A stretch of 64,000 bases of DNA, taken from Kribbella qitaiheensis. Lineage in GTDB: Bacteria > Actinomycetota > Actinomycetes > Propionibacteriales > Kribbellaceae. This document shows, piece after piece, positions 41,755-48,214 of the stretch; position 1 is the first letter of the stretch; every line of letters starts with the position of its first letter. The notes under the pieces are model-generated. The model searched no databases and was not told where the DNA came from. It worked only from the letters and a program-made list of their open reading frames with translations. Position numbers and translations under genes: made by a program. The stretch lies in the NCBI RefSeq assembly GCF_014217565.1, contig NZ_CP043661.1, forward strand, positions 3,410,001 to 3,474,000, given 5' to 3'.

Positions 41755-42734
41755 GACTGATCCACCTCGGCAACGTCGTCGTCGACCTCGTGCTCACCGT
41801 GGGCGATCTCCCGGTCCGCGGCGGTGACGTGATCGCCTCCAGCACGACGGTCACCCCCGGCGGCGGCTTCAACGTGATGGCTGCCGCCTCCCGGCTCGGC
41901 CTCACCACCCTGTACGCCGGTCCGCTTGGCACCGGCCCCTTCGGCGACAAGGCGCGAGCCGCTCTCACCGCAGCCGGTATCGAGTGGTTGCTCCCGGCAA
42001 GGGCGGAGCTGGACACGGGTTTCGTGGTCACGCTGGTCGACTCGTCCGGCGAACGTACCTTCGTCACCAGCCGTGGCGCCGAGGCAACTCTGAGCAGCGC
42101 CGACCTACGGCGGCCGGATCCTGACGACGTGGTGTACCTGTCCGGCTACAGCCTGCTCCACGATTCCAACCGAGCAGCTCTGGTCCCATGGCTCGAGACG
42201 ATCCCGGCTGACGTACAGGTCTTCTTCGACCCGGGTCCTTTGGTTGCCGACATCCCCTCAACTGCTCTTGAAGCCGTCCTCGCGAGAGCCAGTTGGATCA
42301 GCTGCAACGCCGCCGAGGCGGAGGCGCTGACAGGCCTGACTGACCCCGCTACTGCCGCCGCCGCTGCCGGCGCCGCTGCTGTCGCCGCCGCTGCGTTGGC
42401 TGCTCGGGCTGGCCGCGGCGGGGTGATCCCGGGCAACGCGTCCATCGCCCCGGACCCGGCGCCCGGAGTACTGGTTCGAATCGGGTCGGGCGGCTGCCTG
42501 CTCGCAGTACGGGGTGAGGTTGTGGCTGTCGAGGGGTTCGCCGTGGATGCAGTGGACCTGAACGGTGCCGGGGACGCCCACGCGGGGGCATTTCTGGCAG
42601 GGATTGCCGAGGGCAAGGAACCGGTGGAGGCGGCCCGCTGGGCCAATGCGGCCGCGGCTCTTGCGGTCACTCGTCGCGGACCGGCTACCGGGCCGTCCAG
42701 GAGTGAGCTCGAGGGGTTCCTAAGGGAGCACTAG
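41751..42734 (+). CDS. PfkB-family sugar/nucleoside kinase
   Basis: 327 aa; ATG overlaps the ARH stop by 4 bp. N-terminal GNVVVDLVLTV and GGGFNVMAAASRLG bind the sugar; the anion-hole and catalytic Asp are in DLNGAGDAHAGAFLAG near residue 265-280. An Ala-rich stretch (about 200-225) is unusual. Ribokinase- or pseudouridine-kinase-like role: it would phosphorylate the ribose moiety released by the upstream hydrolase. Last gene of the operon. Confidence 0.9.
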   Translation: MRLIHLGNVVVDLVLTVGDLPVRGGDVIASSTTVTPGGGFNVMAAASRLGLTTLYAGPLGTGPFGDKARAALTAAGIEWLLPARAELDTGFVVTLVDSSGERTFVTSRGAEATLSSADLRRPDPDDVVYLSGYSLLHDSNRAALVPWLETIPADVQVFFDPGPLVADIPSTALEAVLARASWISCNAAEAEALTGLTDPATAAAAAGAAAVAAAALAARAGRGGVIPGNASIAPDPAPGVLVRIGSGGCLLAVRGEVVAVEGFAVDAVDLNGAGDAHAGAFLAGIAEGKEPVEAARWANAAAALAVTRRGPATGPSRSELEGFLREH

Positions 42735-42759
42735 TGCGCCCGGCGTGGGCGTAGGTACC

Positions 42760-42818
42760 GGGATAGGGAGTTGTGCGGATGTGCCCGTCCTCCTCAGGCG
42801 AGCAGAGTCTGGGCATCG
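42760..42818 (+). promoter_or_regulatory. Leader block, copy 1, of the small-protein cluster
   Basis: A 59-bp block starting GGGATAGGGAG and ending GGGCATCG, 45 of 59 positions identical to 43247-43305 with no gaps. It lies 24 bp before the first small gene. CTAGTG occurs upstream in both copies. It probably contains a shared promoter/operator and 5' leader. Both copies also encode a similar start, Met-Cys-x-x-Ser-Ser-x-Glu-Gln, so a leader peptide is possible. Confidence 0.5.
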
Positions 42819-42841
42819 ACACACTCCCGGAGGAGATCATG

Positions 42842-43009
42842 ATGTTGTTCTACTCTTCCCAGTTCCTCGACGCGGAGATCGCCTACCGCCAGGAGCGGAT
42901 CAAGCGGGACTACCAGCGCCCACTGTGGTTCCGTAAGCCCAAGCCCGCCCCGAAGCCCACACCGCAGCAGGCTTGCCGCCCAGCGGTCCAGGCCCGGCAC
43001 GCCATGTGA
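42842..43009 (+). CDS. Tiny basic protein 1 of a tandem paralogous trio
   Basis: 55 aa. ATG at 42842 is 6 bp after GGAGGAG (the ATG just before it is too close). It shares with the two downstream proteins the core (I/V/T)xYRxERxxR(D/E)(Y/F): here AEIAYRQERIKRDY at residues 11-24. The C-terminal half is Pro/Lys-rich (KPKPAPKPTPQQ). No signal peptide or membrane segment. The function is unknown. Being placed before a LuxR/ATPase regulator and preceded by a leader that is duplicated before the second gene suggests common control. Confidence 0.65.
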   Translation: MLFYSSQFLDAEIAYRQERIKRDYQRPLWFRKPKPAPKPTPQQACRPAVQARHAM

Positions 43010-43047
43010 ATGCCCGGTCCCCACCCCAACCCCAATCCCCCCACTGC

Positions 43048-43088
43048 GCAGCGCGGCCGAGGTCCCTCCCAGACCCCGGCCGCGCTGC
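43048..43088. terminator. Hairpin after small gene 1
   Basis: Perfect 11-bp arms GCAGCGCGGCC and GGCCGCGCTGC around a 19-nt loop, 39 bp after the stop of the first small gene. There is no T-run, so it may attenuate rather than fully terminate. Confidence 0.45.
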
Positions 43089-43246
43089 CGCATTTCCGCC
43101 TCGCAAGCCTCAGGCAGACCTCCTCTGAACCTCTCGCTTTCCCTCACCTGTGCCCGCGCGACGGCCAGTCGCCTGCGGCGTACGAGAAGGGGGCCTTAGG
43201 CGGCATTCCAGCCAGCTGAGGACTACCTAGTGAGTCCCTAGGGCCA

Positions 43247-43305
43247 GGGATAGGGAGGAAGTCCGATGTGCGGCCCCTCCTCAGACGAGCAGATTAGGGG
43301 CATCG
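43247..43305 (+). promoter_or_regulatory. Leader block, copy 2, of the small-protein cluster
   Basis: Gapless 59-bp relative of 42760-42818 (45 of 59 identical), 37 bp before the second small gene. Just upstream TCCCTA (43235-43240) and TAGGGA (43251-43256) form an inverted repeat with a 10-bp spacer. Probably the promoter/operator and leader for small genes 2 and 3. The 333-bp gap 43010-43342 holds this block, the hairpin at 43048-43088 and no other gene. Confidence 0.5.
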
Positions 43306-43342
43306 GCAAGGAGCCGGGAGCAACAGCCAGGAGGCAACCGAA

Positions 43343-43474
43343 ATGTTCACCACCGACAGCGTCAAGGCCGAGGTCACCTACCGCCGCGAGCGTCTCACCC
43401 GCGACTACGGCCGGACGGCTCGCCGTACCGGAGCCAGCCGGCACCTCGTCCACCTGTTCACCAAGAACGTCTGA
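43343..43474 (+). CDS. Tiny basic protein 2 of a tandem paralogous trio
   Basis: 43 aa; ATG at 43343 is 8 bp after AGGAGG. Core AEVTYRRERLTRDY at residues 9-22 aligns with AEIAYRQERIKRDY and AETAYRQERTKREF in the neighbours. The rest is Arg-rich, ending HLVHLFTKNV. It is too short for standard gene finders and lies in a frame overlapped by longer spurious ORFs. The conserved core, ribosome site and 15-bp spacing to gene 3 argue that it is real. Confidence 0.62.
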   Translation: MFTTDSVKAEVTYRRERLTRDYGRTARRTGASRHLVHLFTKNV

Positions 43475-43489
43475 GGGGAGGCAACAACC

Positions 43490-43651
43490 ATGTTCATCAA
43501 CACTTACTCGATCCAGGCGGAGACCGCCTACCGACAAGAGCGGACCAAGCGCGAGTTCCGGGTCACCCCCCGGAAGGAGAGCCAGCAGCAGGCCCCCAAG
43601 CCTGAACCGCGGCAAGCGCGCCGGGCCCTGCGACCCACCCACGCCGCATGA
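43490..43651 (+). CDS. Tiny basic protein 3 of a tandem paralogous trio
   Basis: 53 aa; ATG at 43490 after GAGGGGAGG. Core AETAYRQERTKREF at residues 10-23, then Gln/Pro/Arg-rich tail (ESQQQAPKPEPRQARRAL) similar in style to protein 1. It is followed by a strong hairpin terminator, then the LuxR/ATPase regulator. Function unknown; regulatory peptides or nucleic-acid-binding proteins are guesses. Confidence 0.65.
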   Translation: MFINTYSIQAETAYRQERTKREFRVTPRKESQQQAPKPEPRQARRALRPTHAA

Positions 43652-43661
43652 CCCCCGCATC

Positions 43662-43707
43662 CACCGTCCCCGACCGGTTACTCCAGGTCGGGGACGGTGT
43701 TCTTTCT
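43662..43707 (+). terminator. Rho-independent terminator after the small-protein cluster
   Basis: Perfect 14-bp stem (CACCGTCCCCGACC / GGTCGGGGACGGTG, 43662-43675 and 43686-43699) with a 10-nt loop, followed by TTCTTTCT. It ends the small-gene transcript 10 bp after its last stop and separates it from the LuxR regulator. Confidence 0.88.
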
Positions 43708-43815
43708 CCCGACCCTCACCCAGCCGGTGGTACAGGTGTTCGGACAGTGATTCTTTCGGCCGCGGACAGCGCGCGGACGGGATGCCGTCGATTTGTGTCG
43801 GCTCCAGGGGCGAAG

Positions 43816-46735
43816 ATGGACGACGTGCCCTGGACCTCGACACCCCTCGTCGGCCGCTCGACCGAGATGGCCGCCCTGCTCAGCACCGTCGACGACGCGA
43901 AAACGCGTCGCGCCGGTGCAGTTCTGCTGTCCGGTGACGCGGGCGTCGGCAAGACCCGGCTGCTAGACGAGGTCGCGACCGGCGCGCACGAGCGCGGGTT
44001 CGGTGTCCTGGTCGGGCACTGCACCGACTTCGGCGACGCCGGGCCTGCCGTACCTCGCCTTCACCGAGATCTTCGGCCGGCTGGCCGGGGAGCGCCCCGA
44101 CCTGGTCGAGAGCGTGCTCGACAACTTCCCCGCGATCAGCCGGCTGCTGCCCACGCACCGGCTGATCGGCGCGCCCGCCGTTCCGCAGGACGGCCAGCTG
44201 GACCGCGCCGCCCTGTTCGACGCCGTGCTCGGGGCCTTCACCGCGCTGTCCACCAGCGAGCCGCTGCTGGTGATCATCGAGGACGCGCACTGGGCAGACG
44301 ACTCGACGCGGGACCTGATCGGTTTCCTGCTCACCCGGCTGACCTCGCAACGGCTCGCGCTGGTGGTCTCGTACCGCAGCGACGACCTGCACCGTCGGCA
44401 CCCGCTGCGCCGGCCGATCGCCGAGTGGTCCCGCATCCCGCGCGTACGCCGGGTGAACGTGGCTCCGTTGAACGCCGACGAGTCCCTGACCCTGCTCAAC
44501 GAGCTGACCACCGAACCGCTGTCGGAGGTCGAAGTACGGCGGATTCTGGAGCGGGCCGGGGGGAACGCCTTCTTCACCGAGGAGCTGGTCGCCGCCGCAT
44601 CCATGGGCGACGGCGACATGGTGCCACCGGATCTGGCCGATCTCCTGCTGGTCCGCCTCGACCCACTGTCGGACGACGCGCGCCAGGTCGCCCGGGTGAT
44701 CGCCGTCGCCGGGCGACGCGTTCCGCACACCCTGCTGACCGCCGTGGCCGGGCTGCCGGACCGCGAGCTCGACGCCGCGCTCCGGGAGCTCATCGACGCG
44801 CACATCATCGAGCACCCCGGCAACGCGAGCTACTACTTCCGGCACGCGCTGCTGGCCGAGGCTGTGTACGACGACCTGCTGCCGGGCGAGCGGGTGCGCC
44901 AGCACGCGGCGTACGCGAAAGCACTGAAGGACCAGACAGTCGCCGGTACTGCGGCGGAGCTGGCTGGGCACGCCACCAGGTCGCATGATCTGGCGACCGC
45001 CTTCGAAGCACGGGTGCGGGCCGGTCAGGAGGCGATCTCGGTCGCTGCGCCGCAGGAGGCACTGAAGCACTACGAGATGGCGCTGGAGCTGTATCCGAAC
45101 GCGGCCGAGGACGCCAGCATCGACAAGACCTGGCTCGTCGTCGCGACGGCAAAGGCAGCCGCCCTCTCGGCGCAGCAACCGCGAGCTCTGAAGTTGCTCC
45201 GCAAGGCCCTGGTCGAGCTGCCGGCCGATGCTCCGCGCCTCCAGCGGGCCCAGCTGTTGATGCCGCTGGCCGAGATCGCGCTGTACATCGACTACGACCA
45301 GGAGGCGCACGAGGCCATCACCCAGGCTCTGCGGCTGACCTCGGACGAGCCTGCGAGCGTGTTCAAGGCAGAGGTCATGTCGCTGTACGCGCGGGTCTCG
45401 GACGCGCTCGGCCGGCCGATGGAGGCAGAGCGCTGGGCGCTCGAGGCGGTCCAGATCGCCCGCGAGGTCGGCCAGGAGTCGGCAGCGGGCGACGCCGGGA
45501 TCACCCTCGCCATCCTTCGCCGCCGTGCGGGTGACCCCGTCGCCGCGGCGAAACAGTTGGAGGAGGCCGCCGTACGGGCCCAGCTGGCCGGAGACCCGGC
45601 GGCCGAAGTACGCAGCCGGTTCCTGCTCGGCTCTACCCACTACGAACAAGGTGACCTGGTCAATGCCAGGACTGCCCTTCAGGACGCCGCTCTGCGGGCG
45701 GGCGAGCTCGGACGGCAGTGGGCCGCGTACGGGTTCGACGCCCGGCGGATGCTCGCGCTGACCCAGTTCATGCTCGGCGATTGGGACGGCGCAGCTGCCA
45801 CCGCCCGGGTCGGTTCGATGACGCCGATCGCGGCGGAGGCCGCTTTGCGCGGCGTGGGCCTGGCTGTCCGGGGCGGGCGCGGCGACACCTCGGTTGCCGA
45901 GGACCTGGAACGGCTGCGCAAGTGGTGGTCGCTCGATGTGATGCTGCCGATCATCGGGTTGCAGCCCGCGGTGGACGCCTATCGCGCGCTGGGTCAGACC
46001 GCCGAGGCGGAGAAGCTCATCGCCGACGTATCGGCGCTGTGTGCCGACGCGTTCCAGACCGACTGGTTCATGGCGAGGATCCGGTTCTCGGCACTCGGGC
46101 TCCAGCTGCTCAGCCACCGAGTGGTGAGTGAGCCCAGTGCGGCCGCGGAGCTCGTCGCGCGGGGCGCGGAGCTGGTCGGCGACGGACAGGCGACCGCCGA
46201 GAAGGGAACGCCGCCCGGGCGGGTGCTCGGGGCCGAGGGGATCGCCTGGCTGGCCCGGCTGGAAGCCGAGTGGGAGCGGCTGCGCTGGCTGGCGGGGATC
46301 GATGCGCCGACGGCCGAGGAGCATGTCGCGACCTGGCGGCGGACCGTGGATGCCTTCGGGTACGGATACGTGTTCGAGCAGGCGTGGTCGCGGGTGCATC
46401 TGTCGGCGGCATTGCGTGCGGCCGGCCGGATGACCGACGCGCACGAGCAGACCCAGCTCGCGACCGAGGTGGCCCGGCAGTTGGGGGCCAAACCGCTGCT
46501 CGACGAGCTCGGTGGAGCCGAAGCGGGGATGGGGCCCGCCGCGTTGACCGCTCGCGAGACCGAGGTGCTGGCGCTGCTGGCCGAGGGCCGGACCAACCGG
46601 CAACTGGCCCGCGAGCTCTACATCAGCGAGAAGACAGTCAGCGTGCACGTCTCCAACATCTTGGCCAAGCTCGGTGTCCGCTCCCGGACCGAAGCAGCCG
46701 CCGTGGCCCGCCGCGACGGCCTGCTGGACAGCTGA
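43816..46735 (+). CDS. LuxR-family regulator with N-terminal ATPase (frameshifted)
   Basis: Large ATP-binding LuxR (LAL/MalT-like) regulator, about 972 aa when corrected. ATG at 43816; Walker A GDAGVGKT (40-47). Walker B/sensor features continue (LLVIIEDAHWADDSTRDL), then a long TPR-like helical middle and a C-terminal LuxR HTH (LTARETEVLALLAEGRTNRQLARELYISEKTVSVHVSNILAKLG). The frame breaks at the GGG run 44041-44043: CTDFGDAG is followed in the next frame by LPYLAFTEIFGRLAGERPD. Deleting one G restores it. The HTH is complete and in the long downstream frame. Probable regulator of the small-protein cluster upstream. Confidence 0.87.
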
Positions 46736-47011: not shown

Positions 47012-47193
47012 ACCTCACCACCCCGTATTCGCCCCGTATCCCCGAGTAGTCACCTTAACCCTGTTTTAACGAATTGGCGACAGGCAGATAGCAATCCGTC
47101 ACATAACAAGGCATCAGGAGCGATTGTTGTGCGAGGCAATGACTCAGGGTGATCAGGCAACGACCGTTCCCTGCGGCGGCAGGTTACTCTCCG

Positions 47194-48214
47194 CTACGCC
47201 CTCAGGTCGCCGAGGACGCGGAGCAGGTTGGCGCCGAGGATCTTCCGGATCGTTGGTTCGGGCATTCCGCGGGACACCAGTTCGTCGGTGAGCAGCGGCA
47301 TACCGGCCGGACCTTCGAGGCCCGGGACGTGGATGTCGGCGTCGAGGCCTTCGATGATCAGCGGCCGATCGCAAGCCGGGATCTTCTCGTCGAACACTTC
47401 CTGGACGAAGTCGCTGCCGAGCCCGACGTGGTCCTCCCCGGCAACGTCCACGATGTACTGGACGTGGCCGGCGAGGTGGCCGATCGTCGGCTTCTCGGTG
47501 GTCAGGAAGCCCGCGAAGAAGTTCACGCAGATCACGCCCCCGGTCGCGGCGATCCCGCGGAGCTGCTCGTCGGTCAGGTTGCGGTGGTGCTCGCGCAGCG
47601 CGAAGGCGCTCGAGTGCGAGGCGACGACCGGCTTCGTGGCGAGCTCCAGAATGTGCTCGACGCCGCCGCGGCCGACGTGCGAGACATCGATCAGGACGCC
47701 GAGTTCCTCCAGCAGCCCGACCGCTTCCACGCCGGCCCCGGGTCAGCCGGCTGCCCGCCGCGTCCTCACCGGAGCCGTCGCCGAGCGCACTCCGGCCGAA
47801 GTGGGTGAACGAAGCCATCCGTACGCCGAGGCGCTGCAGCGTCTGCAGCAGTTCGAGATCGACGTCGATCTGTGGGCAGCCCTCCAACGCGAGGACCAAG
47901 GCGATCTTGTTCGCCTCGACCGCAGCGGTGATCTCGGCCCCGCTGCGGCACAGCGCCACCTCGTCACCATTGCCTTCGGCGATCTGGTGCGCGGCCTCGA
48001 CCATCCGGAGCGTCTCGCGCAACGAGCCTTCGGGACGGAACTCGTCGTCGATGAAGACCGGCAGCACCTGGACGTCGACGCCGCCCTCGCGGAGCTGCGG
48101 GATCCAGCGCTCGCGGAAGTACCCGACCCAGTTCCGCCGCGGCCGTCTTGCCACCAGCATCAACAGGTCGTTGTGCGCGTCCGCGACCACCGCGTCCCGA
48201 TGCAGCTCCGTCAT
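47194..48214 (-). CDS. Membrane dipeptidase, M19 family (frameshifted)
   Basis: Zinc dipeptidase of the renal-dipeptidase/amidohydrolase type, about 339 aa corrected. The N-terminal zinc motif VADAHNDLLM (His13, Asp15) is in the first frame, which loses sense after GDGSGEDAAGSRLT. The second frame carries EAVGLLEELGVLIDVSHVG, VVASHSSAFAL, IGHLAGHVQYIVDVAGEDHVGLGSDF and the C-terminus to 47194. Deleting one base from the CCCC run 47736-47739 joins them. It hydrolyses dipeptides, often with D-residues. Divergent from the ornithine cyclodeaminase-like gene. Confidence 0.86.

Follow-up and report, generated by a model that had tools for sequence, protein, structure and literature searches.

We analysed a 64,000-nucleotide stretch of the genome of Kribbella qitaiheensis, hereafter the window, which covers bases 3410001-3474000 of the 8.16-Mb single-contig genome (NZ_CP043661.1). 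Within it lie three small open reading frames (ORFs A, B and C), two copies of a putative promoter element and a gene for a large ATP-binding regulator of the LuxR family (LAL). The features, in window positions, are as follows:

42719-42725, no strand assigned: CCTAAGG site 5' of the A element, with CTAGTG next at 42731
42760-42815, plus strand: promoter element (putative) copy 1, before ORF A, with ATAGGGAG at 42763, GATGTG at 42778 and CTCCTCAG at 42790
42842-43009, plus strand: ORF A, 55 codons, with a further in-frame ATG at 42839
43194-43200, no strand assigned: CCTTAGG site 5' of the B element
43237-43242, no strand assigned: CCTAGG site 5' of the B element, with CTAGTG also at 43227
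43247-43302, plus strand: promoter element (putative) copy 2, before ORFs B and C, with ATAGGGAG at 43250, GATGTG at 43265 and CTCCTCAG at 43277
43343-43474, plus strand: ORF B, 43 codons, predicted to form a single helix over residues 4-40
43490-43651, plus strand: ORF C, 53 codons, starting 15 bases past the stop codon of B
43662-43699, plus strand: terminator-like hairpin, then TTCTTTCT; an alignment shows the hairpin in locus L039 too
43816-46735, plus strand: LuxR-type LAL (AAA_16, TPR and GerE domains), which a frameshift lying somewhere from about 44003 to about 44060 splits in this assembly

Sequence comparisons indicate that the three small ORFs are probably genuine genes. A preliminary description of this DNA had reported tandem paralogous ORFs of 55, 43 and 53 codons, each with a ribosome site, and these are present at the positions given above. 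Among the 38 Kribbella loci collected (L042, a contig fragment, was dropped), pattern recognition identified A at 24, B at 37 and C at every one. A ribosome-site-like motif lies ahead of 20 of the 24 A ORFs, all 37 B ORFs and 28 of the 38 C ORFs; some of those without it (for example, A of L056 and L068) had been assigned a later methionine as their start. The common core aligns over AExxYRxERxxR, in which the residues A, E, Y, R, E, R and R do not vary, nor does one C-terminal R, and proteins A and C have a Pro/Lys/Gln-rich tail in common, also as described before. The strong hairpin reported after ORF C exists as well: it folds at -33.6 kcal/mol within 70 nucleotides and has a T-rich tail, and a simple terminator scan did not list it. 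With a profile of the three proteins, homologues are detected in every one of the 37 other genus genomes searched (best E 4.8e-24), with at least three homologues in 36 of these; genome G004 has two.

The ratio of non-synonymous to synonymous divergence (dN/dS, omega) shows the synonymous-site bias expected of genes for two of the three ORFs, A and C, so that the ground for refutation named in the preliminary description, absence of this bias, falls away for these two. Its median is 0.47 for A (263 pairs, 24 sequences, the loci in which the pattern recognised A) and 0.60 for C (702 pairs, 38 sequences), and omega stays under 1 for 98.5% of the usable A pairs and 93.9% of the usable C pairs. 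For B the median of 0.83 is ambiguous: the first 24 codons have dN 0.14 and dS 0.31, and the remaining codons dN 0.34 and dS 0.14. Compared over the same genome pairs, the dS of B is 0.42 of that of the LAL gene, a low synonymous divergence that might reflect codon or mRNA constraint. The B values, with dS below dN in the second half, would suit a reading in which the ORFs are open merely by chance in GC-rich DNA and conservation is confined to the promoter DNA. This is scarcely credible given the omega values of A and C and the retention of the protein core across families and orders. We also take B to be coding, because its frame is kept at 42-45 amino acids in 37 loci, every one with a ribosome-site-like motif, and because the core is retained in other families.

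Protein B is predicted to be one helix, confidently so over about the first 20 residues. As the preliminary description had stated, the small proteins carry no known domain: those of the window match no family in Pfam, NCBIfam, PADLOC or PHROGs, and 25 family members compared with Pfam gave just two single weak matches (E 0.027 and 0.03). A phage origin was rejected (no PHROGs match), as was a defence system, for which PADLOC yields matches on the LAL only, at the level of the helix-turn-helix (HTH). One genus locus, L060 in genome G028, is unusual in having three elements, an A of 73 and a C of 93 amino acids, and no B recognised by pattern.

LAL regulators are common in actinomycetes, and we know of few with a known operator, target set or partner. 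The regulator of the window had been described as a single ORF of 972 amino acids, which does not hold: from the ATG at 43816 to 46735 there are 2920 bases, not a multiple of three, and ORF 43648-44988 shares its frame with the P-loop part, ORF 44003-46735 with the remainder, where a LAL would be expected to form one continuous chain of about 900-1000 amino acids. In the other Kribbella genomes the gene is open throughout, except in G028 with one TAA. Pfam finds the ATP-binding domain AAA_16 (E 7.3e-16, frame of 43648-44985) and a C-terminal GerE HTH (E 6.8e-21, residues 847-902), with a TPR domain beside them. A LAL with 72-92% identity lies 3' of the small ORFs in 38 of 38 genus loci; a sugar-kinase gene lies 5' of the trio in only 11 of 38, two loci beginning near a contig end.

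The DNA upstream of A resembles that upstream of B, a duplication that the preliminary description had not included. A and the B-C pair each carry one copy of a gapless element of about 56 bp, TA[A/G]GG-N8-CGATGT-N9-CCTCAG, and throughout the genus this upstream DNA hardly varies and includes TAGGGA, GATGTG and CTCAG. A sequence model of the element (R1) matches in every one of the 38 genus genomes. It finds just the two copies in the genome of the window itself (E 1.8e-15 for copy 1 and 3.3e-14 for copy 2) and a single one in G004.

Short sites accompany the element. CCTAGG or CCTNAGG occurs 79 times in 37 genus B promoters, compared with 3.7 times in shuffled sequences, at about 14, 24, 34, 45 and 56 bp from TAGGGA, that is, about one helical turn apart; before the A element, sites of this type cluster about 24 bp 5' of TAGGGA. 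Outside Kribbella, CTGAGGTA/TACCTCAG-like sites precede the element in their place: TGAGG[T/C]A-type sites number 103 in 114 promoters (still including L287, a genus copy) compared with 1.3 in shuffles, and peak 22-23 bp 5' of TAGGG. Stretches of GTACGCC or GGCGTACGGCGTAC also recur amid the operator sites (L070, L072 and L100-L113; in the genus, for example, L052 and L061).

An alignment of 103 of the collected elements from many families (A5; L267 was left out of the element alignments) is gapless and has no predicted base pairs, its conserved columns being partly imposed by the patterns used for collecting. Because it is gapless and lacks a predicted fold, we read the element as promoter or operator DNA. 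It could instead be a structured 5' leader RNA or the start of a leader peptide acting by attenuation: GATGTG holds an ATG about 15 bases past TAGGG, and the genus B leader is predicted to form a short hairpin at a point farther downstream. We consider this very unlikely, since no Rfam match above chance level was found in 42000-44500 and no pair is predicted in the 103 elements, which led us to reject a riboswitch; the ATG is lost in L070 (GACGT), would be followed immediately by a stop codon in L048 and, before B, stands in a frame other than the protein's. The candidate leader peptide MCxxSSxEQ, read from the element's ATGTG, was likewise rejected, as variants lose the start. The hairpin of the B leader (43303-43325 in the window) has five pairs with varying stem letters (GGC/GCC, GAC/GTC, AGC/GCT) and an RNAalifold score of -6.6.

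The module is not specific to the genus. The first three-protein profile matched in only 5 of 79 relatives of the order outside Kribbella; later searches in other families and orders led us to reject a family restricted to the genus. Many LAL relatives there are preceded by one Arg-rich protein of about 36-81 amino acids, often with the AExxYRxER core, and in other families of the order the LAL that lies 3' of the small protein has about 39-48% identity. A LAL lies near the small protein in all 24 loci that were fetched because a small-protein profile matched there (L070-L073 and L100-L119), with partial alignments only in L103 and L114. Starting from the LAL instead, we collected 40 upstream regions in other families, chosen in the main from genomes without a match to the protein profile, and found a small ORF in 30 (20 by pattern, 10 by eye); in L168 and L169 a divergent small ORF and CTGAGGTACCTCAG or a near match lie between the genes (by eye). 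Among 34 LAL loci of other orders, 17 have a small ORF (L210 and L216 by eye) and three the element or operator only. L194 and L212 have two small ORFs each, and in L194 either one has its own element. The tandem paralogy that had been proposed is supported, as is a regulator that keeps its place beside the trio. Tripling is mainly a trait of Kribbella; elsewhere the usual unit is one small protein, a LAL and the conserved promoter element.

Element and LAL occur together across the order. With E-value limits of 1e-130 for the LAL and 1e-4 for the element, 154 of 391 genomes possess the two together, 19 have just the LAL, 12 have just the element, and 206 lack both (Fisher p 7e-71); with the genus left out, the counts are 116, 19, 12 and 206. 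Seven of the 12 element-only genomes were inspected: no fewer than six of the 12 do contain a LAL, its match lying at or below the cut-off (G105, G180, G216, G386, G270 and G346, the last two being the source of the LALs of L103 and L114), and in G387 the stretch ends at a contig end.

We then scanned a public genome collection for the exact pattern TAGGG-N8-CGATGTG-N8-CCTCAG (34 bp, 18 fixed bases) alone. The scan gave 88 matches in 80 listed loci, with about 8 expected by chance at equal base frequencies. A LAL match lies downstream of 73 of the 88, within 1.2 kb in 72 and at 4.4 kb in L290, and a regular expression finds the small ORF at 65; the genera with a LAL include Kribbella, Nocardioides, Terrabacter, Intrasporangium, Ornithinimicrobium and Aeromicrobium. 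Of the 15 matches without a LAL, nine reach the end of the stretch or contig (in L236 a LAL visibly starts). The others precede a WhiB7 gene (L238 and L279), a ligase gene (L287), a small Arg-rich ORF (L273) or, in Arsenicicoccus, a small ORF without a LAL (L246), and L267 looks like a chance match. The pattern picks out one LAL subfamily and its small-protein gene across genera, so that a putative regulon can be read from genomes; the small proteins themselves are easily overlooked in annotation.

Extra copies of the element stand before other genes. Nine were fetched in the genus (L128 being weak, E 0.0026). An ATP-grasp gene of the L-amino-acid-ligase type follows five of them (L126 matches Pfam LAL_C2 and PDB 3vot, and the five genes are 80-100% identical to L126), and a gene of the major facilitator superfamily follows the other four (MFS; L128 by Pfam, the remaining three by eye). 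In L120 and L122 the element and the first codons of ORF B start the ligase gene, as if moved jointly (L120 by eye). A further 13 extra copies come from outside the genus. Seven of these, in Nocardioides-type genomes, lie before a WhiB7 homologue; two lie before a small Arg-rich ORF on its own, three before such an ORF with another gene behind it, and the last before a small hydrophobic ORF. L353 and L356 appear to repeat L279 and L238, so that this set overlaps with the scan. The proteins of L238 and L279 are Whib in Pfam, with no family for either in NCBIfam; WhiB7 is the best PDB match of L238 (E 2.7e-28, the RGRPRK hook included), and further WhiB7 homologues were assigned by tblastn at 48-74% identity. 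The hydrophobic case, L352 in G364, is an ORF of 47 amino acids whose N-terminal half is hydrophobic, unlike the Arg-rich family. In L358, L359 and L362 the element and a small Arg-rich ORF lie 5' of a further gene, the start of which may resemble LigD-type polymerases.

The ligase and MFS genes raise the question of whether the small proteins might be matured into modified peptides, with the ligase as the processing enzyme and the MFS protein as the exporter, as the same promoter stands before both kinds of gene in some Kribbella. Ligase orthologues near the query are present in only 6 of 38 genus genomes, compared with 38 of 38 for the small proteins, and their loci lie elsewhere in those genomes, apart from the small-protein locus; we regard this explanation as highly improbable.

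The same extra copies bear on what reads the element. If it were the promoter of another factor, such as an alternative sigma factor or WhiB7, the LAL would merely be one target among the WhiB7, MFS and ligase genes. The hexamer at TAGGG would suit an unusual sigma factor: it fits the usual actinomycete -10 box TANNNT in 0 of 73 genus and 1 of 114 other elements. The close co-occurrence of element and LAL across the order speaks against this, as do the helical spacing of the genus sites, expected of a DNA-binding regulator, and the absence of the WhiB7 site GAAAWY from the DNA 5' of the elements (0 of 73 in the genus, 0 of 114 elsewhere). WhiB7 was rejected as the reader of the element on the GAAAWY and TANNNT counts, and we consider another factor in general rather unlikely.

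The small proteins, element and LAL are conserved together, and we read them as one actinomycete module. Our preferred reading, to which we give a probability of about 0.68, is that of an autoregulated stress regulon of the LAL, with small helical Arg-rich proteins as its usual output and the element most likely recognised by the LAL itself. The position of the regulator in the genus and its co-occurrence with the element support the earlier claim that it is dedicated to the small genes. After a signal, the LAL would assemble on the operator sites and activate the promoters. Where small gene and LAL are nearly back to back, as in L071 (17 bases apart), the LAL would act back on its own expression. 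The Kribbella arrangement differs in that A and B-C are separate units, and the terminator-like hairpin stands 5' of the LAL. The AExxYRxER helix might serve for docking and the Arg-rich part for contact with nucleic acid or the ribosome, which is the least certain step. We lean slightly, and tentatively, to the small proteins being a feedback partner of the LAL, a role as pure output effectors being almost as probable.

Several observations weigh against the regulon of the LAL and small proteins. Neither small ORF nor element was found in 7 of the 40 LAL upstream regions (L174 left out) and in 14 of the 34 LAL loci of other orders. Nineteen order genomes have a LAL (E up to 1e-130) and lack the element, the genomes are related, so that the Fisher value overstates their independence, and in six Intrasporangiaceae-type loci of the scan (L235, L256, L275, L278, L296 and L300) the LAL identity is only 33-37%. 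The operator motifs are unlike between the genus and other families, TAGGG departs from TANNNT, and the WhiB7, MFS and ligase targets are present in a minority of genomes. ORF B is ambiguous by dN/dS, and a search of the window's own genome with model R1 found no third element.

Known systems offer partial parallels. E. coli MalT is a signal transduction ATPase with numerous domains (STAND) that activates transcription and is repressed by its partner protein MalY, according to the excerpted account (PMC10427625). For MalT of Actinoplanes sp. SE50/110, the portion of the report drawn on here gives a palindromic motif, TCATCC-N5-GGATGA, that overlaps the -35 region of target promoters (PMC7567727). 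MalT and the window LAL have in common an ATPase and a LuxR-type DNA-binding end, and we count the LAL among the MalT-like STAND regulators; the LAL scores 35.5 bits with the MalT equivalog model (NF003420), whose cut-off is 537, and the sites here are CTGAGGTA/TACCTCAG or CCTNAGG, unlike the Actinoplanes motif in the portion cited. Genes for small proteins lie in front of the LAL, whereas the same portion of the Actinoplanes report mentions none (PMC7567727). A partner that holds MalT back and a motif at -35 led us to propose the LAL as the activator of the element, with the small proteins serving either as its feedback partner or as its first effectors. If TAGGG were the -10 region and transcription started 7-8 bp later, as in the excerpted description of Streptomyces promoters (PMC7157823), the TGAGG[T/C]A site would cover about -35; as the hexamer is not TANNNT, both the -10 label and this placement are a guess.

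The WhiB7 homologues among the targets suggest a theme. WhiB7/WblC governs, in autoregulated fashion, the actinomycete response to translation-targeting antibiotics, and its sites, as given in the excerpted text, are GAAAWY upstream of a -35 box with a TANNNT -10 (PMC7157823), neither of which the element has. The WhiB7 and MFS genes behind extra elements in relatives suggest antibiotic or translation stress, which lends indirect support to the stress system supposed earlier. Should the WhiB7 link prove causal, a further regulator would stand over the main switch of intrinsic resistance. A bolder extension, which we consider doubtful, is a class-wide actinomycete stress circuit in which the LAL would sense stress (perhaps blocked translation), read the promoter made up of the element and CTGAGGTA, and induce small Arg-rich helical proteins acting on the LAL or the ribosome; in some lineages it would stand above WhiB7 and so add an upstream layer to intrinsic antibiotic resistance.

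In Streptomyces, XRE regulators are reportedly coupled genetically to a small protein encoded downstream that has a DUF397 domain. The likeness lies in the coupling of a transcription regulator to a small protein; the regulator class differs, the DUF397 gene is downstream, and the small proteins here have no Pfam family. A search of the open-access literature, with subscription journals outside its coverage, found no description of a system of LAL, small protein and element; the regulator class is known, and its combination with this small-protein family and a widespread promoter element appears to be new.

Finally, beyond the LAL gene, two overlapping frames on the minus strand (47153-48214 and 47194-47730) resemble parts of one dipeptidase-like gene (by eye). 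They suggest a second frameshift, and the frameshift in the LAL gene may thus be an assembly error.

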